A DNA stretch of 39,994 nt from an uncultured SAR86 cluster bacterium. GTDB lineage: Bacteria; Pseudomonadota; Gammaproteobacteria; Magnimaribacterales; D2472. Each line of letters opens with the position of its first letter. Position 1 is the stretch's first letter. Of this stretch, positions 5,415 to 16,953 are shown piece by piece. The stretch lies in NCBI GenBank assembly GCA_902520495.1, contig CABYNW010000010.1, positions 1-39,994 on the forward strand. Direction: 5' to 3'. The notes under the pieces are model-generated. The model did no database searches. It was not told the DNA's origin and saw only the letters and a program-made list of their open reading frames with translations. The position numbers and the translations under genes were made by a program.

Positions 5415-5805
5415 AAAAAAAAGACTTTCAAGTATTTTATTTGTTTTTTTATTTTCTGTATCTGGAGTTTCTTTAATTCTTTATTCATTAAATTCAAATC
5501 TAGATTATTTTTTTACGCCAACTGAGCTTAAGAAAGTTCAGATGCCCCCTAATAAAAGAATAAAAATTGGTGGCATGGTACTTGAGGATTCAGTTAAAAG
5601 AAATACTTCTAAGATTTCTTTTACTATAACTGATTATGAAAATTCTGTAATTGTAGTATTTGAAGGAATTGTCCCAGATTTATTTAAAGAAGGAAGTGGT
5701 GTTGTGGCATTAGGGTATTTAGATAATGAAATTTTTTATGCGAAAGAAGTTTTAGCTAAACACGATGAAAATTACATGCCGCCTAATTTAGATATAAAAC
5801 AATGA
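5401..5805 (+). CDS. ccmE: Periplasmic heme chaperone CcmE
   Basis: A 134-residue protein with an N-terminal membrane anchor (about residues 10-30) and a periplasmic OB-fold domain. The covalent heme-binding histidine is H121 in AKHDENYMPP, with the conserved tyrosine Y125 four residues later, exactly the family pattern. The C-terminal tail after this motif is very short (about nine residues). CcmE receives heme from CcmC and hands it to CcmF. Its ATG lies inside ccmD and its stop overlaps the ccmF start (ATGA at 5802-5805). Confidence 0.95.
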   Translation: MNPIRKKRLSSILFVFLFSVSGVSLILYSLNSNLDYFFTPTELKKVQMPPNKRIKIGGMVLEDSVKRNTSKISFTITDYENSVIVVFEGIVPDLFKEGSGVVALGYLDNEIFYAKEVLAKHDENYMPPNLDIKQ

Positions 5806-7688
5806 TAGTTGAAATATCACATTTTTTATCAATACTTTCGACTGCATTATTTTTCTTGGCTGGATCTTTTGCATTAACATTAAAAAATACTACCTATATT
5901 TCAAATCTTATAAGCAGAACATATTCTCATGCTTTTTTACTTCTTTCCCTTTCTTTCTTTATTTATATTTTTCTAGCTATAACTGATAATTTTAGCGTTC
6001 AATATATTGCTAATCACTCAAATTCGGCACTTCCAGTTTTTTACAAGATTTCATCTATTTGGAGCGCTCATGAAGGATCAATGTTTTTATGGATATTCTT
6101 TTTAGCGCTATGGGGCTTTATTTTTAATATAAGTATTTATAACGAAGAAACTCTTAAACCAAAAACAATCGGAATCATATCTTTGGTGCTAGTAGGTTTT
6201 TTATTATTTTTATTGATCACCTCAAATCCTTTTGTTACGATTTTGCCAATAGCACCTCTCAATGGGGCAGACATAAATCCAGTTCTTCAGGATCCTGCTT
6301 TAGCCATTCATCCACCAACTCTATATTTAGGCTACGTTGGCTTTGTTATTCCATTCGCATGTTCGTTAGCATTTCTAATAAATAATGATCCAGCCATAAA
6401 ATGGGAAATATTAGTTCAAAAATGGTCTGTAGCGGCATGGATTTTTCTGACTGTTGGAATCACATTAGGAAGCTGGTGGGCATATTACGAATTAGGATGG
6501 GGTGGGTATTGGTTCTGGGACCCGGTTGAAAATGTTGCTTTAATGCCATGGTTGGCAGCAACAGCATTTCTTCATTCATTGAGTGTTTCAATAAAATCTT
6601 CACATCTAAGAACATGGACAATACTCTTATCCATAACAGTTTTTTCTTTGAGTCTGTTTGGAGCATTTATTGTAAGGTCTGGAATTATTGACAGTGTCCA
6701 TTCTTTTGCTAATGATCCTCAACGAGGCTTATATTTATTAGCTTTTATATCTGTTATTATTTTGATTTCATTAAGCTTATTTATTTCAAGACTCTCCCTA
6801 ATAGGAACTCCTAACAATATAAAGACACTTTCAAAAGAGTCATTTATATCAATAAATAATATATTTTTTGGGACGTTAATTTTTTCAATAATGCTAGGTG
6901 TAATATACCCGCTGATTTATGAATATCTATATGATCAGAAGATTAGTGTTGGTGCTCCTTTTTATAATGCAATTTTTATCCCAATAGTTATATTAGCTGC
7001 TATATTTTTATTTTTCTCAATTGATTCAAAATGGTCAAGAGTTATAAATTTAAAATTTTTTAGTAAGCCAATTTCTCTTTCAATATTATTTTCACTTGCT
7101 GTTACATTGCTAATTTTTATTAATATTGAAAAAGTAAGTATTTTTATTCTGTGTTCTATATTTGCAGGATTATTAATTATCTTTAGATACCTAATAGAAA
7201 TTTGGAATGCATTTGCCTATAAGAAATACCTTAACCCATTTAGTGCAATTGCTCATTTTGCGTTAGGGTTGCTCTTAGTATCAATTTCTTTAAATAGTTT
7301 ATTAAGCTCAGAAAGAGCATTAAATATTAAGATAAATGAATTTGAACAATACAAAGATTTAAAGATTTACTTTACAGATTTGGGAGTCAATAAGGGATCT
7401 AATTATGATTCAGTTCAAGCTAAGTTTTATATTGAAGATCAAAATGGCAATAGTTTTAATTTAAATCCAGAAAAAAGAAGATATTTTACTAGAGGCCAAA
7501 TTACTACTGAAACTGCTATCTATGTAAGCCCAATTAGGGATGTCTATTTAACAATAGGAGACCAGCTTGAAGATGGTAGTTGGATTGTAAATATACAAAT
7601 TAATTTTTTAATTAGATGGATATGGTTTTCTGCTTGTTTAATGGCGCTTGCAGGAGTGGTGTTAATATTATCAAAAAGAAAAGTTTAG
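5802..7688 (+). CDS. ccmF: Cytochrome c heme lyase subunit CcmF
   Basis: A 628-residue polytopic membrane protein, close to the usual 640-660. The WWD domain is at about residues 233-250 (GWGGYWFWDPVENVALMP). Conserved heme-ligand histidines are visible at H170 (AIHPPTLY) and H258 (FLHS), and again in the DSVHSFANDPQRG stretch after the WWD motif. A periplasmic domain and a last membrane segment form the C-terminus. CcmF with CcmH/I ligates heme to apocytochrome CXXCH motifs. ccmG follows after three bases. Confidence 0.96.
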   Translation: MIVEISHFLSILSTALFFLAGSFALTLKNTTYISNLISRTYSHAFLLLSLSFFIYIFLAITDNFSVQYIANHSNSALPVFYKISSIWSAHEGSMFLWIFFLALWGFIFNISIYNEETLKPKTIGIISLVLVGFLLFLLITSNPFVTILPIAPLNGADINPVLQDPALAIHPPTLYLGYVGFVIPFACSLAFLINNDPAIKWEILVQKWSVAAWIFLTVGITLGSWWAYYELGWGGYWFWDPVENVALMPWLAATAFLHSLSVSIKSSHLRTWTILLSITVFSLSLFGAFIVRSGIIDSVHSFANDPQRGLYLLAFISVIILISLSLFISRLSLIGTPNNIKTLSKESFISINNIFFGTLIFSIMLGVIYPLIYEYLYDQKISVGAPFYNAIFIPIVILAAIFLFFSIDSKWSRVINLKFFSKPISLSILFSLAVTLLIFINIEKVSIFILCSIFAGLLIIFRYLIEIWNAFAYKKYLNPFSAIAHFALGLLLVSISLNSLLSSERALNIKINEFEQYKDLKIYFTDLGVNKGSNYDSVQAKFYIEDQNGNSFNLNPEKRRYFTRGQITTETAIYVSPIRDVYLTIGDQLEDGSWIVNIQINFLIRWIWFSACLMALAGVVLILSKRKV

Positions 7689-7691
7689 AAT

Positions 7692-8216
7692 ATGAAAATT
7701 TTATTAAAGTTAATTATTATTTTTCTCCCAATATCATTTATCTTGATGTTTTTTATTTTATTGAGTGAAGATAAGCAGTTTCCAGGAGCCGACTATCGTG
7801 AATTTGATTTGCCTGCATTTAGTCTTCAAAATCTTGGTGGTACTAAGATTATTAAAAATATAGATTTAAAAGGGGATTCAATAATAAATGTATGGGCAAG
7901 TTGGTGTATAACATGCCGAGTAGAACATCCATATTTAATGAGTTTAAATAAGAAAGGAATACCCGTAATTGGTATTAATTACAAGGATGATAGAAATAAT
8001 GCTGTCGATTGGCTCTCAAAATTTGGTGATCCCTATGAATTAATAATTCATGACTATAAAGGATCATTAGCTCTAGATATGGGTGTTACAGGAGCGCCAG
8101 AAACCTTTTTAGTCAATAATGGAAAAATAGTTGCTCATTATCAAGGTGAAATTAACACAACTATTTGGAATAAGGTGTTTGCTCCAATCATCGATGAAAA
8201 GGATATGTTTAAATGA
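7692..8216 (+). CDS. ccmG: Periplasmic thiol:disulfide oxidoreductase CcmG (DsbE)
   Basis: A 174-residue membrane-anchored thioredoxin-fold protein: one N-terminal membrane segment (about residues 5-25) and then the DsbE/CcmG domain. The active site is W-C72-I-T-C75, where CcmG proteins usually have Cys-Pro-Thr-Cys or a similar Pro-containing pair. The cis-proline loop is TGAPETF with P136. CcmG reduces apocytochrome c or CcmH disulfides using electrons from DsbD/CcdA. The stop overlaps the start of ccmH (ATGA). Confidence 0.94.
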   Translation: MKILLKLIIIFLPISFILMFFILLSEDKQFPGADYREFDLPAFSLQNLGGTKIIKNIDLKGDSIINVWASWCITCRVEHPYLMSLNKKGIPVIGINYKDDRNNAVDWLSKFGDPYELIIHDYKGSLALDMGVTGAPETFLVNNGKIVAHYQGEINTTIWNKVFAPIIDEKDMFK

Positions 8217-8584
8217 AAATAAAATATATTCTTTTAATATTTTTATCTCTATTTGCTTCTTCAGGAGTTTTATATGAATTTTCAAATGATGAAGACGAAA
8301 AAAGATTTAATAAACTTATTAAAGACATCAGATGTCCAAAATGCACATCTGGATCTTTATCAAGCTCAAATGCACCCATTTCTGAGGACTTAAAATTAAA
8401 GATAGCAGAAATGATCAACGAAAATAAAACTGATAATGAAATAAAAGATTATGTTGCATTAAGGTTTGGTAAAGATTCATTGTATGAGCCTGAATTAAGC
8501 AAAGGAACTTATCTATTATGGTTTTCACCATTTGGAGTCTTATTAATAGCTTTATCAATCTTTTTATTTAGAAAAAATTATTAA
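8213..8584 (+). CDS. ccmH: Cytochrome c maturation thioredoxin-like protein CcmH
   Basis: A 123-residue protein with a cleavable signal peptide (about residues 1-20), the CcmH redox motif R-C41-P-K-C44, a three-helix domain ending in the conserved FGKDSLYEP (normally FGDxVLYxP), and a C-terminal membrane anchor. This is the short, separate form of CcmH rather than the E. coli CcmH-CcmI fusion. It reduces apocytochrome thiols and acts with CcmF and CcmI in heme ligation. The stop overlaps the ATG of the next gene (TAATG). Confidence 0.93.
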   Translation: MKIKYILLIFLSLFASSGVLYEFSNDEDEKRFNKLIKDIRCPKCTSGSLSSSNAPISEDLKLKIAEMINENKTDNEIKDYVALRFGKDSLYEPELSKGTYLLWFSPFGVLLIALSIFLFRKNY

Positions 8585-9369
8585 TGTTAATATTTTATAT
8601 ATTAATTTTTTTTGCAGCACTTCCTATAATTGCCTATCTTTTAAGTCAAAAGACAAATAACAAAGGTCTTGTTCTAGGATACAGTATTTTAATTTTTACT
8701 TTTTGTTTGATTGTTTTTATAAGTAAATTTTCTTTACTCGGAAGCCTAAACAAACAAATAATAACTAATAACATTACTGAGGAGATATACATAGATTCTA
8801 AGATTTCATTGGAATATTTAAAGGAAGCTGAAGCCATCTTAGATCAAGAAGATATACAAATTTGGATGATTTCTCTTATTTCAAAATCTATCGAACTTAA
8901 CAAATTAAAATCTGCTGAGAGTTTGATTGCCTTCTCAGAAAGATTTTTTGTTACCAATAATGAAAAGGTTATTTTTTATGGTTTATATACTAGCTTAAGA
9001 GATGCCAAATTCCCTGAATTTAAGACTTCAAGTTTTGAAATTGATCAAGATTCGAAATCACCATGTTTAATTAAAACTGGTAATATTCAACTTTTTATAA
9101 TGAATGGTCCAGATATACCGATTGCTCAAAAGGAATTTAAGGATATTCAAAATATTCTTTTAATTAATTCTGATAGTATTATTCCTGGCTTTGATATAGC
9201 TTCGGCTCACCTAAATGATGAGGCAATTGAATTTGAGATTAATGTAGTATGCAAGGAAAATCTTGAAGAGTTTTATATAAGAAATTTAATTGTTTTGAAT
9301 AAAAGCAATATTGTTAATACCTATAAAATTAATCCAAATGAATGGTTAAAAAAATCACAAGAGTTATAA
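8584..9369 (+). CDS. ccmI: CcmI-like cytochrome c biogenesis protein, reduced
   Basis: A 261-residue protein with two N-terminal membrane segments (about residues 3-17 and 26-46), a short helical stretch resembling one or two TPR units (about 70-130), and a beta-rich periplasmic C-terminal domain. The two-helix anchor, the position after ccmH and the order of parts match CcmI (CycH), the apocytochrome chaperone of the heme ligation complex, although typical CcmI is about 400 residues with a longer TPR region. Sequence motifs are weak, so the call rests mainly on topology and gene order. It is the last gene of the ccm block; smc starts 26 bases later on the same strand. Confidence 0.72.
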   Translation: MLIFYILIFFAALPIIAYLLSQKTNNKGLVLGYSILIFTFCLIVFISKFSLLGSLNKQIITNNITEEIYIDSKISLEYLKEAEAILDQEDIQIWMISLISKSIELNKLKSAESLIAFSERFFVTNNEKVIFYGLYTSLRDAKFPEFKTSSFEIDQDSKSPCLIKTGNIQLFIMNGPDIPIAQKEFKDIQNILLINSDSIIPGFDIASAHLNDEAIEFEINVVCKENLEEFYIRNLIVLNKSNIVNTYKINPNEWLKKSQEL

Positions 9370-9395: not shown

Positions 9396-11594
9396 ATGCA
9401 GCTAAAACACATAAAACTATCAGGTTTTAAAAGTTTCGTTGATCCAACGAAAATATCATTTCCCACAAATATGGTTGGTGTTGTTGGTCCTAATGGATGC
9501 GGTAAATCAAATGTTATTGATGCTGTTAGATGGGTGCTTGGAGAACTTTCTGCAAAAAATTTAAGAGGCGAATCAATGGTAGATGTTATCTTCAATGGTT
9601 CAGAAAAAAGAAAAGCGTCAGGTCAATGCAGTATAGAATTGTTATTTGATAACTCAAGTGCAAAAATTGGCGGTGAGTACTCATCTTTTAATGAAGTTTC
9701 AATAAAAAGAATTATGACCAAGGATGCTCAATCTAATTACTTCATAAATAATACAAAATGCAGAAGGAAGGACGTTCAAGAAATATTTCTTGGTACTGGC
9801 CTTGGTCCAAGCTCTTACGCAATCATTGAGCAAGGCATGGTAAGTAAGCTTGTAAGCGCCAAACCGGATGAGCTTAGAACTCACATAGAGGAAGCCGCAG
9901 GAGTATCTAAATACAGAGAAAGAAGAAAAGAGACTGAATCCAGGATCAAAAGAACTAAAGAAAATCTATCGAGAGTTAAAGATATACGAGATGAAATTGC
10001 AAGGCTGATTAAAAGATTAGAAAACCAAGCCAAAGCTGCTGATAGGTACAGTTTATTAAAGAAAGATAAAGCAAAATTAGAATTAGATAAAGCTATTTTA
10101 TTTTCAATAGAAGCAAAAAATAATAGAGATAATCTTCAAAAGAAGCTAGATTCACATAATCGCGATTTAAAAATAAAGAACGCTGAATGTGAAACTATCC
10201 AATCTCAAATAGATCAATACAGGACTGAGAATGATTCAGTTTTAGGTGAATACGAAACAGCTCAAAAGAATTTTTATGCCGTTGGCGCAGAAATTGCTAA
10301 AAGAGAGGCAAATTTACAAAATATTAATAAGTCTGAATCTGAAACAGAATACAGCCTTCAAAAAGCTAAACAGAATTATGAAAAGGCTAAAGAAAGTGAA
10401 AGTAATTTTGATGAGTTAAGTCCAAGTGAAAAAGCTATGCATATTTTAAATGACATAATTTATATTATAGAAAAGCATGGAATTAACAACGACAATATTA
10501 AAGACAAAGCTCAAAAACTAAAAAAGCTTTTAGTAGATATTCTTAATATAGCCACAGCACAATCAAAATCTTTAACTGATGAGTATCTCTCTAGACAAAA
10601 TGAACTTGAGAGTCAAATTAAAGAAACTAAAAAGCTTAAAGTCTCAATTGAAGAGGAAATGAAAGAATATATAAATCTAAGTTCTGACGCTGAATCAGTA
10701 TTGACAGATATCAGGCAAAAACAATCTAAATTTAATGAAGAATTGCGGGATTTAGAAAACAAAAAATCAATTGCAGACTTAGATTCAAGATCTATTTCAG
10801 AAAAGATTACAAATGTTCGAGTTGAGTTAAATACATATGAGGTTAATCTAGAAAATTCTAATAAAAAAATTAAAGAAGCAGGTATAGATATTGAAACTAT
10901 AGATTTTTCTATATATGAAAATACCACCTTTAAAGAAATTGAAGACAAATTGATAGATGTTGAAGCCAAAATAATCAAACTTGGTGCAATAAATTTAGCT
11001 GCACCAGAAGAAATAGCAGAAGAATCAAAAAGGAAAGAAGAGTTAGACAAACAATATAATGATCTTATTGAAGCTCTTGATAAACTTATGGGTGCTATTA
11101 AAAAAATAGATAATGAAACTAAAACTATATTTAAAGATAGTTTTGATGCGGTTAATGCTAGGCTTAAGGAAATGTTTCCTAAATTGTTTGGAGGAGGAAT
11201 GGCTGAACTAACATTAACAGACGATGATCCTCTTAATGCAGGAGTTATCTTGATGGCTCATCCTCCAGGCAAGAAAAATTCATCAATTTCACAATTATCT
11301 GGTGGAGAAAAGGCATTAACTGCTTTGGCTCTAGTATTTGCAATATTTGAGTTAAATCCTGCACCATTTTGTTTACTTGATGAGGTTGATGCGCCTCTTG
11401 ATGATTTAAATACTTTGAGATTTATAGATATGGTTGAAGAGATGTCAAAATCTGTGCAATTTATATTTATAACTCATAATAAAGTATCTATGGAAAGAAG
11501 TGATTATCTTATGGGCGTTACAATGCAAGAAGCTGGTGTTTCTAGAATAGTTACTGTAAATGTGAATCAAGCACTACAATTAGCCGAATCATAG
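9396..11594 (+). CDS. smc: Chromosome segregation SMC protein, short hinge-less form
   Basis: A 732-residue SMC ATPase, where bacterial SMC is normally about 1150-1190 residues. The N-terminal head has Walker A GPNGCGKS (31-38), the Q-loop Gln at about 146 and the typical HIEEAAGVSKYRERRKE exit into the coil (163-179). The C-terminal head has the signature LSGGEKALTALAL (634-646), Walker B CLLDEVDAPLD (659-669) and a THNK switch. The two charged coiled-coil arms span only about 175-335 and 395-570. Between them, where a hinge of about 150 residues with Gly-rich motifs is expected, there is only a helical stretch of about 55 residues (340-395). The frame is uninterrupted and zipA follows with no gap, so it looks like a functional, shortened protein. 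MukB and SbcC are excluded by the head motifs and absence of a zinc hook. Confidence 0.9.
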   Translation: MQLKHIKLSGFKSFVDPTKISFPTNMVGVVGPNGCGKSNVIDAVRWVLGELSAKNLRGESMVDVIFNGSEKRKASGQCSIELLFDNSSAKIGGEYSSFNEVSIKRIMTKDAQSNYFINNTKCRRKDVQEIFLGTGLGPSSYAIIEQGMVSKLVSAKPDELRTHIEEAAGVSKYRERRKETESRIKRTKENLSRVKDIRDEIARLIKRLENQAKAADRYSLLKKDKAKLELDKAILFSIEAKNNRDNLQKKLDSHNRDLKIKNAECETIQSQIDQYRTENDSVLGEYETAQKNFYAVGAEIAKREANLQNINKSESETEYSLQKAKQNYEKAKESESNFDELSPSEKAMHILNDIIYIIEKHGINNDNIKDKAQKLKKLLVDILNIATAQSKSLTDEYLSRQNELESQIKETKKLKVSIEEEMKEYINLSSDAESVLTDIRQKQSKFNEELRDLENKKSIADLDSRSISEKITNVRVELNTYEVNLENSNKKIKEAGIDIETIDFSIYENTTFKEIEDKLIDVEAKIIKLGAINLAAPEEIAEESKRKEELDKQYNDLIEALDKLMGAIKKIDNETKTIFKDSFDAVNARLKEMFPKLFGGGMAELTLTDDDPLNAGVILMAHPPGKKNSSISQLSGGEKALTALALVFAIFELNPAPFCLLDEVDAPLDDLNTLRFIDMVEEMSKSVQFIFITHNKVSMERSDYLMGVTMQEAGVSRIVTVNVNQALQLAES

Positions 11595-12209
11595 ATGGGA
11601 TCAAATTCTGAAATTTATTTAATTGGACTAGCGGTATTATTTTTTTTGATAATTGTTTTTTTGTTCGTAAGAAAAATCACAAATTCAAATAAATTAAAAG
11701 TTAAAATTGAAACAAATCCTGATCCATTTGACTCTGTGGAAAAAAATAATGATACGCTTGAAGAAAAATCTATAGATCTATATGAATCCAAAGAAAATCA
11801 GGAATTAGCATGTTTTTATCTACTATCTGTTGATAAGACAATATTTGATATAGACCAAATCTTTGGGTTTTTATCCAACTATGGAGCAAAAATTAAGAAT
11901 AAATATTTTTCTTTAGTTGATAAAACTGGTATTGAAAAATTTAGAATAATAAATGCTTTAAAACCTGGAACGTTTGAAAATGATACAAGGACATTTGCAA
12001 TAGTTGTTGTTAGTGATTTAATCAGAGTTTCAGATCCGGTAATAACCGTTAAACAAATGATAGAATTTTCAATTAATTTTTCTGAAAAATTTCATGCAAC
12101 GCTTTGTGATGAGGAAAGAACCCCAATTTCAAAACAAATGATTTCACACATGGAATCAAGAGCACAAGATATAGAAAGAATCAATCAACTTAATAAAACT
12201 GAAAATTAA
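11595..12209 (+). CDS. zipA: Cell division protein ZipA
   Basis: A 204-residue protein with an N-terminal membrane anchor (about residues 6-26), a short charged and unstructured linker (about 30-75) and a C-terminal FtsZ-binding domain (about 76-200). The KPGTF motif at the core of the ZipA fold and the final amphipathic helix region (DEERTPISKQMISHMESRAQDI) match the family. ZipA tethers FtsZ to the membrane in gammaproteobacteria. The Pro/Gln-rich linker found in E. coli is nearly absent, making the protein much shorter than the usual 280-330. It starts immediately after the smc stop and ends immediately before the ligase ATG, the conserved smc-zipA-lig neighbourhood. Confidence 0.88.
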   Translation: MGSNSEIYLIGLAVLFFLIIVFLFVRKITNSNKLKVKIETNPDPFDSVEKNNDTLEEKSIDLYESKENQELACFYLLSVDKTIFDIDQIFGFLSNYGAKIKNKYFSLVDKTGIEKFRIINALKPGTFENDTRTFAIVVVSDLIRVSDPVITVKQMIEFSINFSEKFHATLCDEERTPISKQMISHMESRAQDIERINQLNKTEN

Positions 12210-13496
12210 ATGATAAATTCATGGGAAATAGTAAAAGAGCTTGAAAGTAATAACAGTCGCTTATTTAAAGAAGATGTTATAGAAAAGCACTTAAAAGAAA
12301 AAGATTTTCAAGAAGGCCTAGCAATGTGTCTAGATCCATTGGTTACTTTTGGAGTTAAACAGGTACCAGAAAGTGAAAATGACGGAGATGGACTTAATTG
12401 GGAAGATTTTAAAAAATCATCAAATTTGTTGATTAATAGGGATAGAACTGGCCATGCAGCTAGAGATTTAATAATTGATTTAATGAATTTATCATCAAAC
12501 GAACAATGGAATAACTGGTATAGAAGAATTTTAATAAAAGATCTTAGATGTGGCGTAAGTGAAAAAACAGTAAATAATGTTGCTAAAAGAATGGACTTAA
12601 AATTTCGTGTCCCAGTTTTTTCTTGTATGTTGGCTCATGACGGGGCAAAACATCCAAAGAAAATCAAAGGAGATTGTTTAGTTGAATATAAATATGACGG
12701 AGTTAGAGTTATTGCTATTGTTATGAAAGGTAAGGCCACTTTATATAGTCGAAATGGAAAAATATTTAATAACTTTGGCCACATCGAAGAAGCTCTTAGC
12801 AAGCCAGAATATAATAATATTGTTTTTGATGGGGAGGTCATGAGTGATGATTTTCAAGCACTAATGAAACAGGTTTATAGAAAATCTGGTGCCAAAACAG
12901 AGGATGCGTATTTAGCTCTATTTGATATGCTTCCACTTAAAGAATTTAATGATGGCAAAAGTAAACTTAATTCTTTTGAAAGAAAGCAAGAATTAAATAA
13001 GTTATCAATGACATTTGGAAGCGAAATTAAATTAGTTGACTATGAGGTCATTAATTTTGATAGTGAAAAAGGACAGGATAAATTTCTAAAAATGAATAAA
13101 GATGCTCTTGATAAGGGATTTGAGGGCTTAATGATAAAACCAAATGATAACTATTATGAATCAAAGAGGAGCCATGCATGGTTAAAAATTAAACCTTTTA
13201 TTGAAGTAACCTTAAAAGTTATGGACATACAAGAAGGTACCGGAAAGCATGAAGGTAAACTAGGTGCATTTCATGTTGAAGGCAAGGATGATGGAAAATT
13301 TTTTTCATTAAGTGTAGGTAGCGGTTTAACCGACGAGCAAAGGGAAAAGTATTGGGCAGCCAAAGATAAACTTATTGGAAGACTTATAGAAGTTAGAGCC
13401 GATGCAATAACAAAAAGCATTGAGGGTGAGCATTTTAGTTTAAGATTCCCAAGATTTAAAAGTTTTAGAGGCTTTGAAGAAGATGAAAAAATTTAG
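12210..13496 (+). CDS. ATP-dependent DNA ligase (T4-like), in the ligA position
   Basis: A 428-residue ATP-dependent DNA ligase. The nucleotidyltransferase motifs are in order: motif I EYKYDGVR with the adenylated Lys K161, motif III VFDGEVM (FDGE 206-209), motif IIIa YLALFDML (about 234-241), motif IV EGLMIKP (305-311) and motif V WLKIKP (324-329), followed by an OB domain ending in RFPRFKSFR. There is an alpha-helical N-terminal domain of about 150 residues with DLRCGVSEKT. Placement of the active-site Lys close to that of T4 ligase (K159) and overall size suggest a T4-like or other phage-type ligase. No NAD-ligase features (zinc finger, BRCT, NMN-binding Ia domain) are present. Context after smc-zipA implies a housekeeping replication role in place of LigA. 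It overlaps the next gene by 14 bases. Confidence 0.93.
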   Translation: MINSWEIVKELESNNSRLFKEDVIEKHLKEKDFQEGLAMCLDPLVTFGVKQVPESENDGDGLNWEDFKKSSNLLINRDRTGHAARDLIIDLMNLSSNEQWNNWYRRILIKDLRCGVSEKTVNNVAKRMDLKFRVPVFSCMLAHDGAKHPKKIKGDCLVEYKYDGVRVIAIVMKGKATLYSRNGKIFNNFGHIEEALSKPEYNNIVFDGEVMSDDFQALMKQVYRKSGAKTEDAYLALFDMLPLKEFNDGKSKLNSFERKQELNKLSMTFGSEIKLVDYEVINFDSEKGQDKFLKMNKDALDKGFEGLMIKPNDNYYESKRSHAWLKIKPFIEVTLKVMDIQEGTGKHEGKLGAFHVEGKDDGKFFSLSVGSGLTDEQREKYWAAKDKLIGRLIEVRADAITKSIEGEHFSLRFPRFKSFRGFEEDEKI

Positions 13497-14091
13497 AAAG
13501 AGTTCATTATTTTTATTATTAGTTATTATTATTCAATCATGTGCTTCAAAACCACCAGATAGCCCTGATAATATTTGTTTAATTTTTAAAGAAAAAAAGA
13601 GTTGGTATAAAGCATCTATCCGTAGTGAAAAAAGATGGAAAATTCCTCCATACGTATTAATGTCGTTTGTATATCAAGAATCTAGCTTTAAAGCTGACGC
13701 AAGACCAGAAAGAGAGAAATTATTAGGTTTTATTCCTTGGATGAGACCATCTTCTGCAGTTGGTTATTCCCAGGCATTAACAAAAACTTGGGATGATTAT
13801 AAAGATGAAACTGGAAATATTAGAGCTAGCAGAAAGAACTTTAATGATTCAGCAGATTTTATTGGATGGTATGCAAGCAAAGGTTATTATCAAGGATTTG
13901 AAAAGACCGACGCGCGATCACTTTATCTTGCATATCATGAAGGTTATGGAGGTTTTAAAAAGAAATCATACAGACAAAAGCAATGGCTAATAAAAGTAGC
14001 AGATAGAGTTCAAGACAGATCAACTAAATACCAAAAACAATATTGGGGATGCTCAAAAGATCTTAAGAAAAAAAGATTCTTAATTTTTTGA
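13483..14091 (+). CDS. Lytic-transglycosylase-like lipoprotein
   Basis: A 202-residue lipoprotein: basic N-terminus, hydrophobic segment and lipobox ending in C20 (IIQSC). The mature part resembles an SLT domain: helix-forming PPYVLMSFVYQESSF with candidate catalytic Glu E66, then a loop and SAVGYSQALTKTWDDY, which corresponds to the G-x-x-Q motif of soluble lytic transglycosylases, and a later YLAYHEGYGGF. It would cleave the glycan strands of peptidoglycan from the inner face of the outer membrane. The ATG at 13483 is preferred over a TTG three codons earlier; it lies inside the end of the ligase gene. Its stop abuts the stop of the convergent peptidase gene with no space. Confidence 0.8.
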   Translation: MKKFRKSSLFLLLVIIIQSCASKPPDSPDNICLIFKEKKSWYKASIRSEKRWKIPPYVLMSFVYQESSFKADARPEREKLLGFIPWMRPSSAVGYSQALTKTWDDYKDETGNIRASRKNFNDSADFIGWYASKGYYQGFEKTDARSLYLAYHEGYGGFKKKSYRQKQWLIKVADRVQDRSTKYQKQYWGCSKDLKKKRFLIF

Positions 14092-16953
14092 TTAAATATT
14101 TTGAATTTTAAAATTTAGGCGCTTAATCTCTTCTATATAATTTTCACCAGCAATTACAGAACGAGCTGAGTCATTAAATAAGTATTTACTCGAAACGTTA
14201 ATTAAGTCTTTCACAGTACAATTTTTTATTTTTGACCTGAACTGCAGTCTTTTCTCTGAATCTTTATTATCAAGTGAAGATGTAAAATCACTCATTGCTT
14301 CACCATATGGAGAAAGGGGCTTATCTATACTGGAGATAATACCAAGAACACCTTCCTCTAAATGATCTTCAGAGATATTACTTAGAGACCAAGCTATCGA
14401 TTTTTTAAAATCATCAAAAGTTTCAGAGCATCTTGGGTCACGGTATGAGAAGAACTTAAATATCATATTATTTGAATCCTGAATTGCACCAGATCCGTAT
14501 GCGCCGCCTTTTTCTCTTATCGCGGAATGTAAATAACCATTTCTGAGCACAGCACCCAATACAGTTAGAGCTGGAGCATCAGAATGAAAAAAATCAACCG
14601 TTGGGAAAACTTCAGCGCAATAACAAACCTGAGCTCCTGTAATCCATCCTATGGATTGATCTTGAATGTCAAAATAATTTTGAGGTTGGATCTCATTAAT
14701 ATTTTTTTGGAAGCTAAAGTTAATAGACGTATCGCTTTGATCTAATGAAGTTGCAGTAAAAGTATGAACTGGCATTTCATTAATTTTATGTTTAATTGAT
14801 TGAAATAAAGCAATGTATTCTTTTAAGTTAATCTGATTAACAATACTTTTAGATAGATTCTTGGTATTGGAGATAAAACTTATACCAGAAGCAATGTCAT
14901 TAGTAGAAGCAATATTATTTACTTGCGCAGCTGCATTACTCATAGCAAGAATGTGCCCATTTTGAATTAATGACCTTTCATTGCTTGAGGATATAAAATT
15001 TAACATATCTTCTATTCTATTTTCATTATCAAAACTAACTTCCTTAATAGTTTGCATCATCAGATCTTGCATTTTTTGTTCATTAATCTCTAGTGACTTT
15101 GAAGATACTTTTAAACCAATTGTAGGATTTCCTCCATTTAGATTAGGAATTAGAACGAAACTTGAGGATATGCCTCCAGTTATAGCAGATTGAATCTTTT
15201 GAACCTCTTCATAGCTTTTATCTTCTAAACCCAAATCAGTTAAAGTATTGGCAAATAATGAAGATACTTTAAACTCTTCAATAGACAAGTTGTTACAAGG
15301 AAAAATGATAGAATGATAAGTAATTCCATTAGTTCCAGTTTTATAAAAGTAATTACTAGTATTATTTTCTTTAATTATTTTTGGCTCAGCATAGTTTCTA
15401 TTTACAGGAATATCTTCTTTTGTAACTTTTGGAAGTATTTCAGGATTGTCTATAAATTCTTGCCTTTTCTTAAGTTCTGAAGCTAAGTGAATTATTTTTT
15501 CTTTGTCTTTTACAGATAGTTTTTTAGACTTTTCTGTGATTTTATCTTTAATCTTTTGCTCATTCTTATTATTAAATTCTGGATCTGGGATTAAGGAAAA
15601 ATTTATTCTGTGAGAATTTTTAATAATTTTTTCTTGAATTAAATTTTCTATATAATTTTTCGATTTGATTTTTTTCTTGATAATAGAAAATGACGAATCT
15701 AGGTCTAATACCTTTAGAGGATCATCATTATGAATACACGCTGGTAAACAGCCTAGCATTATTTGCAGACCAAAGGGCATACCAGAACCTGATATCTCTC
15801 TTTGTCTTATCTCTAATTGATGAAGAGATGAGCTAACAACATCTTCAGGAATGCCATTTTTTACAACCTCTTTTAAACAATTTAATATTAAATCTTCTAC
15901 CTCTTTTTGTTTATTAGAATCCACTCCTTCAAGACCAGCTGCAAAAACTAACTCTTTGTGATCTGTTTCTAGACCTGTTAATGGTGATAATGATTTTCCA
16001 AGGTCAGTATTTTCTAGAACCTTTCTTAGAGGTGAAGCAGAATTATCAAGAAGAATGTTAGACATTAAATAAGATTCTAATAATTCAATTGGATCATGGC
16101 TTTCCCCTAGAAGCCAGCTTAATACAACATGATGATTATTTTCATCATTTGGGGTTGGATTGTAGAATTCAGTAATTGTTTTAGGAGATTCTAGTCTATC
16201 CTCATTTTCAACCCTTATTAATTGATTAGATGGCTCAAAGTTTTTTAATACATTTTCTCTAATATAGCTTTGTATCTCTTTTGGATTAATATTACCAAAT
16301 GTAAAAAAAGTTGCATTAGAAGGGTGATAGTGTTTTTTATGAAAATCAACTAAATAATCATGAGTAAGATCAATTATATTTTCTGGCGAACCTCCGCTAT
16401 TATGTTTGTAGGTAGATGAAGGGTATAAATGTTTTGATAGACCATGCCAAAGCTGACTAGATACCGAACTCATAGCTCCTTTCATCTCATTAAAGACCAC
16501 TCCTTTAATTTCTAACTCCTCAGGATTTTTATCATTAAATTCAAGTCTATGACCTTCTTGTAAAAAGTCTAATTCATCTAAATTTGGAAAAAAAGATGAA
16601 TCTAAATACACGCTTAATAAATTATTAAAGTCTTTATCGTTTAGAGTTGCAAAAGGGTATGCAGTCCAATCACTCGATGTGAATGCATTCATAAATGTAT
16701 TAAGCGATCTTCTTATCATCATAAAAAAAGGATCCCTTACTGGATATTTCTTAGAGCCACATAATGCAGTATGTTCTAAAATATGCGCTACACCAGTAGA
16801 ATCCTTAGGTATGGTTCTAAAGGCAACCATAAATACCTTCTCATCACTTTTAGAATCTAGATGCACATGCTTGCAATTGAATTCAGATTCAGTATATATT
16901 TGAGCATTAAGGTCTAATAATTTAATATATTTTTGATCTTCTAAATTAAACAT
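14092..16953 (-). CDS. PreP-like M16C zinc metallopeptidase
   Basis: A 953-residue peptidase of family M16C (presequence protease type). The inverted zinc motif HxxEH is H57-I-L-E60-H61, with the third ligand Glu at about E156 in GVVFNEMKG, and the family stretches CGSKKYPVRDPFF and LDSSFFPNLDELDFLQEGHR are present. Two halves separated by a charged hinge region (about residues 465-520) form the clamshell that degrades short unstructured peptides. The C-terminal half has GGAYGSGA, a conserved substrate-binding region. No signal peptide is visible, so it is probably cytoplasmic. It is a single-gene unit, divergent from the lipoprotein gene with only 19 bases between starts, so the two promoters must overlap the coding starts. 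Confidence 0.9.
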   Translation of the reverse strand: MFNLEDQKYIKLLDLNAQIYTESEFNCKHVHLDSKSDEKVFMVAFRTIPKDSTGVAHILEHTALCGSKKYPVRDPFFMMIRRSLNTFMNAFTSSDWTAYPFATLNDKDFNNLLSVYLDSSFFPNLDELDFLQEGHRLEFNDKNPEELEIKGVVFNEMKGAMSSVSSQLWHGLSKHLYPSSTYKHNSGGSPENIIDLTHDYLVDFHKKHYHPSNATFFTFGNINPKEIQSYIRENVLKNFEPSNQLIRVENEDRLESPKTITEFYNPTPNDENNHHVVLSWLLGESHDPIELLESYLMSNILLDNSASPLRKVLENTDLGKSLSPLTGLETDHKELVFAAGLEGVDSNKQKEVEDLILNCLKEVVKNGIPEDVVSSSLHQLEIRQREISGSGMPFGLQIMLGCLPACIHNDDPLKVLDLDSSFSIIKKKIKSKNYIENLIQEKIIKNSHRINFSLIPDPEFNNKNEQKIKDKITEKSKKLSVKDKEKIIHLASELKKRQEFIDNPEILPKVTKEDIPVNRNYAEPKIIKENNTSNYFYKTGTNGITYHSIIFPCNNLSIEEFKVSSLFANTLTDLGLEDKSYEEVQKIQSAITGGISSSFVLIPNLNGGNPTIGLKVSSKSLEINEQKMQDLMMQTIKEVSFDNENRIEDMLNFISSSNERSLIQNGHILAMSNAAAQVNNIASTNDIASGISFISNTKNLSKSIVNQINLKEYIALFQSIKHKINEMPVHTFTATSLDQSDTSINFSFQKNINEIQPQNYFDIQDQSIGWITGAQVCYCAEVFPTVDFFHSDAPALTVLGAVLRNGYLHSAIREKGGAYGSGAIQDSNNMIFKFFSYRDPRCSETFDDFKKSIAWSLSNISEDHLEEGVLGIISSIDKPLSPYGEAMSDFTSSLDNKDSEKRLQFRSKIKNCTVKDLINVSSKYLFNDSARSVIAGENYIEEIKRLNFKIQNI

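Follow-up and report, generated by a model that had tools for sequence, protein, structure and literature searches.

An ATP-dependent DNA ligase of marine phage type at the chromosomal position of ligA in SAR86 bacteria

The NAD-dependent DNA ligase is regarded as the universal and essential replicative ligase of bacteria, and the bacterial ATP-dependent enzymes that have been characterised are seen as auxiliary (PMC10799422). The window considered here, a stretch of 39,994 nucleotides from a SAR86 bacterium, raises the question of what has become of the replicative enzyme when an ATP-dependent ligase gene is found directly after smc and zipA, a position that a first-pass annotation of the sequence had recognised as that of ligA in other gammaproteobacteria. 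That annotation proposed the replacement in situ of the housekeeping ligase by a phage-type enzyme. The features of the locus are collected in Table 1.

Table 1. Features of the ligase locus in the window, with coordinates and the evidence for each assignment.
Feature	Position	Strand	Evidence
Cytochrome c maturation block (ccmF, dsbE, ccmH, ccmI)	5802..9369	+	Syntenic in LigA and ATP-ligase loci; names inferred from order and homology
Short form of smc (732 aa), preceding zipA in the block	9396..11594	+	TIGR02168, 799 bits; syntenic in all loci
zipA, upstream border of the ligase slot	11595..12209	+	PF04354 (ZipA_C), 38 bits; same place in LigA and ATP-ligase genomes
ATP-dependent DNA ligase (PHROG_114/Pmar-Lig kind)	12210..13496	+	ORF; Pfam PF01068 and PF14743; PDB 6rar/6ras/6rau; PHROG_114
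Motif I KYDGVR, with the inferred adenylated lysine K161	12690..12707	+	Translation position, family alignment
Lytic transglycosylase lipoprotein (SLT type), bordering the slot downstream	13483..14091	+	PF19489, E 2.5e-72; same place in LigA genomes
M16-type peptidase gene, part of the conserved right-hand context	14092..16953	-	Syntenic; family name inferred from sequence

The ligase ORF has an ATG start, is complete and encodes 428 aa, within which DNA-binding, adenylation and OB regions can be distinguished. The Pfam domains DNA_ligase_A_M (PF01068) and DNA_ligase_OB_2 (PF14743) were matched with 77.2 and 47.4 bits (cut-offs 26.2 and 28, respectively), and none of the Pfam NAD-ligase domains, PF01653 included, had a match in the protein. 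The conserved motifs start at Lys161 (KYDGVR) and at residues 180 (SRNGK), 207 (DGEVM), 305 (EGLMIK) and 324 (WLKIKP); K161 is invariant in an alignment of 11 sequences, and all of these motifs fall in conserved columns. The translation thus confirms the active-site lysine placed at residue 161 by the first-pass annotation, and Pfam, translation and alignment together confirm its reading of an ATP-dependent ligase with conserved motifs and no NAD-ligase domains. At the level of families, PHROG_114, which groups phage ATP-dependent ligases, matches residues 3-424 (E 4e-91), and the structures of the Prochlorococcus ligase Pmar-Lig (PDB 6RAU, 6RAS and 6RAR) match over the full length (E about 1e-137), residues 6-428 aligning to residues 10-442 of Pmar-Lig with the N-terminal DNA-binding region included. 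With its adenylation and OB domains above the curated cut-offs and its KxDGxR motif, the enzyme is a member of the PHROG_114/Pmar-Lig-like ATP ligases. It shares the adenylation domain PF01068 with LigB, LigC, LigD and LigE, but scores far below the NCBIfam cut-offs for these types: for the LigD, LigC and LigB set, 88.6 bits with TIGR02779 (cut-off 227.75), 77.8 with TIGR02776 (cut-off 373.2) and 54.9 with TIGR04120 (cut-off 400), and, among the LigE-type and other bacterial ATP-ligase models, 75 with NF006592 (cut-off 200). The length of 428 aa and the N-terminal domain that aligns to Pmar-Lig also speak against LigE. The term "T4-like" used at first holds for the family, in which T4 gp30 and SPO1 gp32.95 are likewise ATP-dependent, belong to PHROG_114 and have a similar active-site position; it does not hold for the closest relatives, which are marine phage ligases and Pmar-Lig, whereas SPO1-like ligases are about 30-33% identical and T4 sits on a very long tree branch. 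A simple regular-expression search, which is a weak test, gave no beta-clamp-binding motif in the protein.

In the window's own assembly, whose 36 contigs add up to 1.09 Mb at an estimated completeness of 85%, the ligase is the single PF01068 gene, and a profile search gave no match to PF01653; the absence of LigA from this particular genome therefore relies in part on better-assembled relatives. As a background rate, PF01653 is present in 278 of 282 Gammaproteobacteria that are at least 97% complete, and it was found in 132 of 203 genomes of the SAR86 order. The ATP ligase occurs in 43 of these 203 genomes (42 by the PF01068 family search), all from one family, f1, which by comparison with published SAR86 groups (PMC11582366) is most likely GTDB D2472, the 'Suzuki' SAR86. 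Elsewhere in the Gammaproteobacteria, matches to the SAR86 enzyme were weak and mostly partial. Among the 107 genomes of f1, 47 have LigA, 43 have the ATP ligase and none has both (setting aside a weakly LigA-like PF01653 fragment in genome G129), where chance would give 18.9 co-occurrences (P about 2e-16). Neither ligase was called in 17 genomes: 16 of them also lack the neighbouring SLT gene, and hence the locus is unassembled there, and in the other one (G075), where SLT is present, the contig starts inside the ligA C-terminus.

Searches with a full-length LigA of the same genus as query returned nothing in 42 of the 43 ATP-ligase genomes, and LigA is absent from all 11 of those that are at least 90% complete. 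The LigA-free set includes a single-contig genome (G093) and isolate D2474-A1-1 (G089), whose complete chromosome, CP097973, lacks PF01653 and has the ATP ligase as its only DNA ligase gene. The same gene in the same context is carried by other named SAR86 genomes, namely those of the AG-series single cells and SAR86A (JH611156). The one exception to the empty searches is G129, where the PF01653 fragment lies at the end of another contig (C125; L057:5441-5993) and is 37% identical to SAR86 LigA; it is not the LigA of SAR86, and a phage NAD ligase or a chimeric or contaminant contig could account for it. A normal ligA elsewhere, which would have refuted the replacement, was found neither in the window's genome nor in 42 of the 43 ATP-ligase genomes, and the ATP ligase appears to be the only DNA ligase of its SAR86 carriers. 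An assembly artefact was rejected on account of the many single-cell genomes, the complete chromosome and the uniform synteny. Two irregular copies were also set aside: the ligase of G101 looks broken by frameshifts, as does the neighbouring M16 peptidase gene, which makes sequencing error likelier than a pseudogene, and the partial ligase of G119 is cut by a contig end.

In the window, the zipA stop codon (TAA) ends at 12209 and the ligase ATG directly adjoins it at 12210; the genes do abut, as had been described, but their proteins are not fused. At the other end, the ligase and transglycosylase genes share 14 bases, the ligase stop codon among them, if the ATG at 13483 is used. The order ccmF-dsbE-ccmH-ccmI-smc-zipA-[ligase]-SLT was found in every locus spanning the region (80 genomes), ccmI and zipA being so diverged in some of the outgroup loci that they could not be assigned, and the slot holds either LigA or the ATP ligase, never both. 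No phage genes were seen in the slot context of the SAR86 chromosomal ligase. The SMC encoded in this block is unusually short in SAR86, most genera (labelled g1 to g10 within f1) having a protein of 727-827 aa, and g9 together with some of the g4, g5 and g6 genomes one of 995 aa. The SMC_hinge domain (PF06470) was matched neither in the window's SMC nor in 61 sampled genomes of the order, a search that also missed the Caulobacter control; a hinge-less SMC is possible in SAR86.

The occupants of the slot show which enzyme was there before. LigA lies between zipA and SLT in all sampled loci of three other families (f2, f3 and f4) and of the f1 genera g2, g3, g4, g5 and g10. The ATP ligase predominates in g1, where two genomes (G099 and G126) have LigA, and in g9, where again two (G140 and G142) do, g8 is represented by a single genome, with the ATP ligase, and g6 and g7 mostly have LigA, with one ATP-ligase genome each (G083 and G089, respectively). 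LigA is therefore ancestral in the slot. The arrangement zipA-ligA-SLT in relatives from the same genera and from sister families, as against zipA-ATP ligase-SLT in the kin of the window, shows the proposed replacement in situ, and no relative was found with ligA between zipA and the ATP ligase. Very probably, judging from these gene orders and the phylogeny given below, the replicative LigA of SAR86 was displaced at its own position by an ATP ligase captured from a marine phage. That the ATP ligase would instead be an accessory enzyme, borne by a prophage or used in repair, with LigA merely missing from incomplete assemblies, could be supposed from the incompleteness of many SAR86 genomes and from the accessory role of the related Pmar-Lig beside LigA (PMC6698739). 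This is hardly credible given that LigA is lacking from each of the most complete carrier genomes, the complete chromosome and the single-contig genome among them, and that the gene occupies the ancestral ligA slot with the same neighbours, has no phage genes nearby and never stands beside ligA.

The origin of the displacing gene can be followed among viral sequences. Full-length relatives with 51-64% identity are common in marine viral contigs of IMG/VR (at least 600 listed), and a further 1567 phage records match the ligase at lower identity. The SAR86 ligases, including those of the window's kin, are nested among these viral enzymes (L164-L169 and L069 being examples), inside several starred viral nodes, with an immediate sister node at 85/79 in the careful tree; the phage-type origin suggested by the first-pass annotation is therefore supported by phylogeny. 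The IMG/VR contigs were called viral computationally, and the nearest ones have few hallmark genes in the part fetched; some viral ligase neighbourhoods do carry genes for a clamp loader, PhoH, a gp32-type SSB and an exonuclease. The viral ligases are encoded with other phage genes around them; the SAR86 gene differs in its chromosomal, syntenic location and in having long been under purifying selection. The opposite direction of transfer, in which phages would have taken the ligase from SAR86 and the gene would not be of phage origin, draws on the known acquisition of host genes by phages and on the moderate support for grouping SAR86 with the viral clade closest to it. We regard it as highly improbable, considering how deep inside the viral tree the SAR86 clade lies, the number of viral contigs and phage records with relatives of the gene, and the presence of LigA in the slot in all outgroup SAR86 families. 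The viral clade that encloses the Prochlorococcus ligases (Pmar-Lig) is not the one around those of SAR86, and therefore at least two cellular captures from phages are indicated.

Two observations concern individual contigs of this data set. One viral contig with a SAR86-like ligase encodes an arginine deiminase/amidinotransferase-like protein (L165:1062-2135), together with several metabolic-looking genes. The ligase of a Candidatus Pacearchaeota MAG (NZDU01000048; L122) is almost identical to that of the viral contig L188, and the archaeal sequence is probably a mis-binned phage contig.

The distribution of the two enzymes within f1 was compared with a tree of the flanking genes (ccmF, SMC and M16 peptidase; 2081 columns, 80 genomes). 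On this tree the ligase type must have changed seven times, including at least six times on strongly supported branches. The displacement itself stands, but it was not a single event in one lineage. At the same time, the SAR86 ATP ligases form one clade, with a support of 100 in a quick tree (136 rows) and of 100/100 in a careful one built under a mixture model (67 rows). A single clade despite at least six switches makes one capture, followed by movement within SAR86, the simplest history. Particular cases of such movement can be recognised. In G083 (g6), the ligase shares 88% identity with those of g9, compared with 67% for SMC and the M16 peptidase, about 50% for zipA and about 73% for SLT, and in a DNA comparison the raised similarity covers the ligase gene; the excess of the ligase (88%) over its flanks (67%) indicates that the gene was passed from one SAR86 lineage to another and took up the corresponding slot there. 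The ligase of G089 (g7) groups with those of g1 and g8 (99/98), against the host tree. The LigA phylogeny follows the genera, unlike that of the ATP ligase.

Two other histories have to be weighed against one capture and subsequent spread. Several independent captures from different phages would account for the six or more switches on the flank tree and for the patchy distribution in g6, g7, g8, g9 and g1; such a history is very unlikely when both the quick and the careful tree place all SAR86 ATP ligases in one fully supported clade, and when passage from one SAR86 lineage to another accounts for G083 and G089. Alternatively, the ATP ligase could be ancestral to g1 and g9, with G099, G126, G140 and G142 having regained LigA by recombination. 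In favour of this, the flank tree places G126 in the midst of genomes with the ATP ligase, and the g1 ATP ligases form a clade. On the other hand, the LigA proteins of G099 and G126 are 65% identical to each other, a divergence that is usual at that flank identity, they group together where g1 is expected (weakly, 79/74), and no recent foreign donor of LigA is visible. From their sequences, these two LigA look retained rather than recently imported, and a regain of LigA is a possible but doubtful explanation. Of the histories considered, one capture with spread inside family D2472 is the one we retain. The spread would have relied on homologous recombination, for which zipA and SLT offer conserved flanks, making the slot a two-allele locus, with either LigA or the phage-type ligase, that would have been switched at least six times. 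We are inclined to think that the SAR86 ligase locus is indeed a two-state locus repeatedly exchanged by recombination, in which case the cofactor of an essential step would be inherited horizontally.

In its carriers, the enzyme is expected to take AMP from ATP via Lys161, and its ATP use and nick sealing are predicted from the conserved motifs and from the solved relative Pmar-Lig. The charged lysine would then serve for the sealing of nicks in Okazaki fragments and repair, as by T4 ligase and Pmar-Lig. In nine close pairs, the dN/dS of the SAR86 ATP ligase is 0.035-0.096, a sign of strong purifying selection; because of this selection, the intact motifs and the fact that it is the only ligase found, we infer that it performs Okazaki-fragment and repair ligation, and it is presumably essential for growth.

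The recycling of NMN was examined as a possible driver of the exchange. LigA releases NMN, and a loss of the NMN deamidase domain (PF02464) coupled to the change of enzyme was therefore considered. It was rejected, as there is no link with ligase type across the SAR86 families: a stand-alone PncC is found in most f2 and f3 genomes, f4 has LigA and no strong PncC, and throughout f1, with either ligase type, PncC gives way to a nucleotidyltransferase fusion whose CinA-like domain is weak. This f1 fusion of CinA-like and cytidylyltransferase-like (PF01467) parts is 368 aa long (L060:871-1977; near 106731-106958 on contig C2 of G000) and possibly handles NMN.

Among known systems, the closest in kind is Pmar-Lig (PDB 6RAR, 6RAS, 6RAU and 6RCE; PMC6698739), which is 52% identical to the SAR86 enzyme, has the same domain plan and likewise comes from a marine bacterium and the same broad phage ligase group. 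It was captured separately, and in Prochlorococcus, where a replicative NAD enzyme is present beside three ATP ligases, Pmar-Lig is described as accessory (PMC6698739), whereas the SAR86 gene is in the ligA slot and LigA is gone. Ligation by ATP-dependent enzymes only, initially called very rare in bacteria, is very rare but not unprecedented, as the NAD ligase of Babela massiliensis (Dependentiae) is reported to have been replaced by an ATP-dependent one (PMC4378268). That organism is a reduced parasite of amoebae, unlike the abundant and free-living SAR86, and the available sections of its description mention neither a swap in situ nor repeated switching (PMC4378268). A literature search, whose scope left many subscription papers and supplements outside, found no description of the SAR86 ligase swap, and a 2024 comparison of SAR86 genomes mentions the word 'ligase' once, for bile acid-CoA ligases (PMC11582366). 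The enzyme is a new member of the known group of phage and Prochlorococcus ligases, and the loss of LigA to an ATP ligase is already known; what is unusual is its housekeeping use at the position of LigA, where two unrelated enzymes have repeatedly taken each other's place.

In a free-living marine order that is abundant in surface waters of the ocean, LigA thus appears to have been lost in dozens of species, with an enzyme of phage type at the same position. Close species lie on either side of the switch, so how and why an essential replication enzyme is exchanged becomes directly testable. If this reading is true, the cofactor of a replication step would be interchangeable, perhaps selected by NAD economy or by phage pressure.
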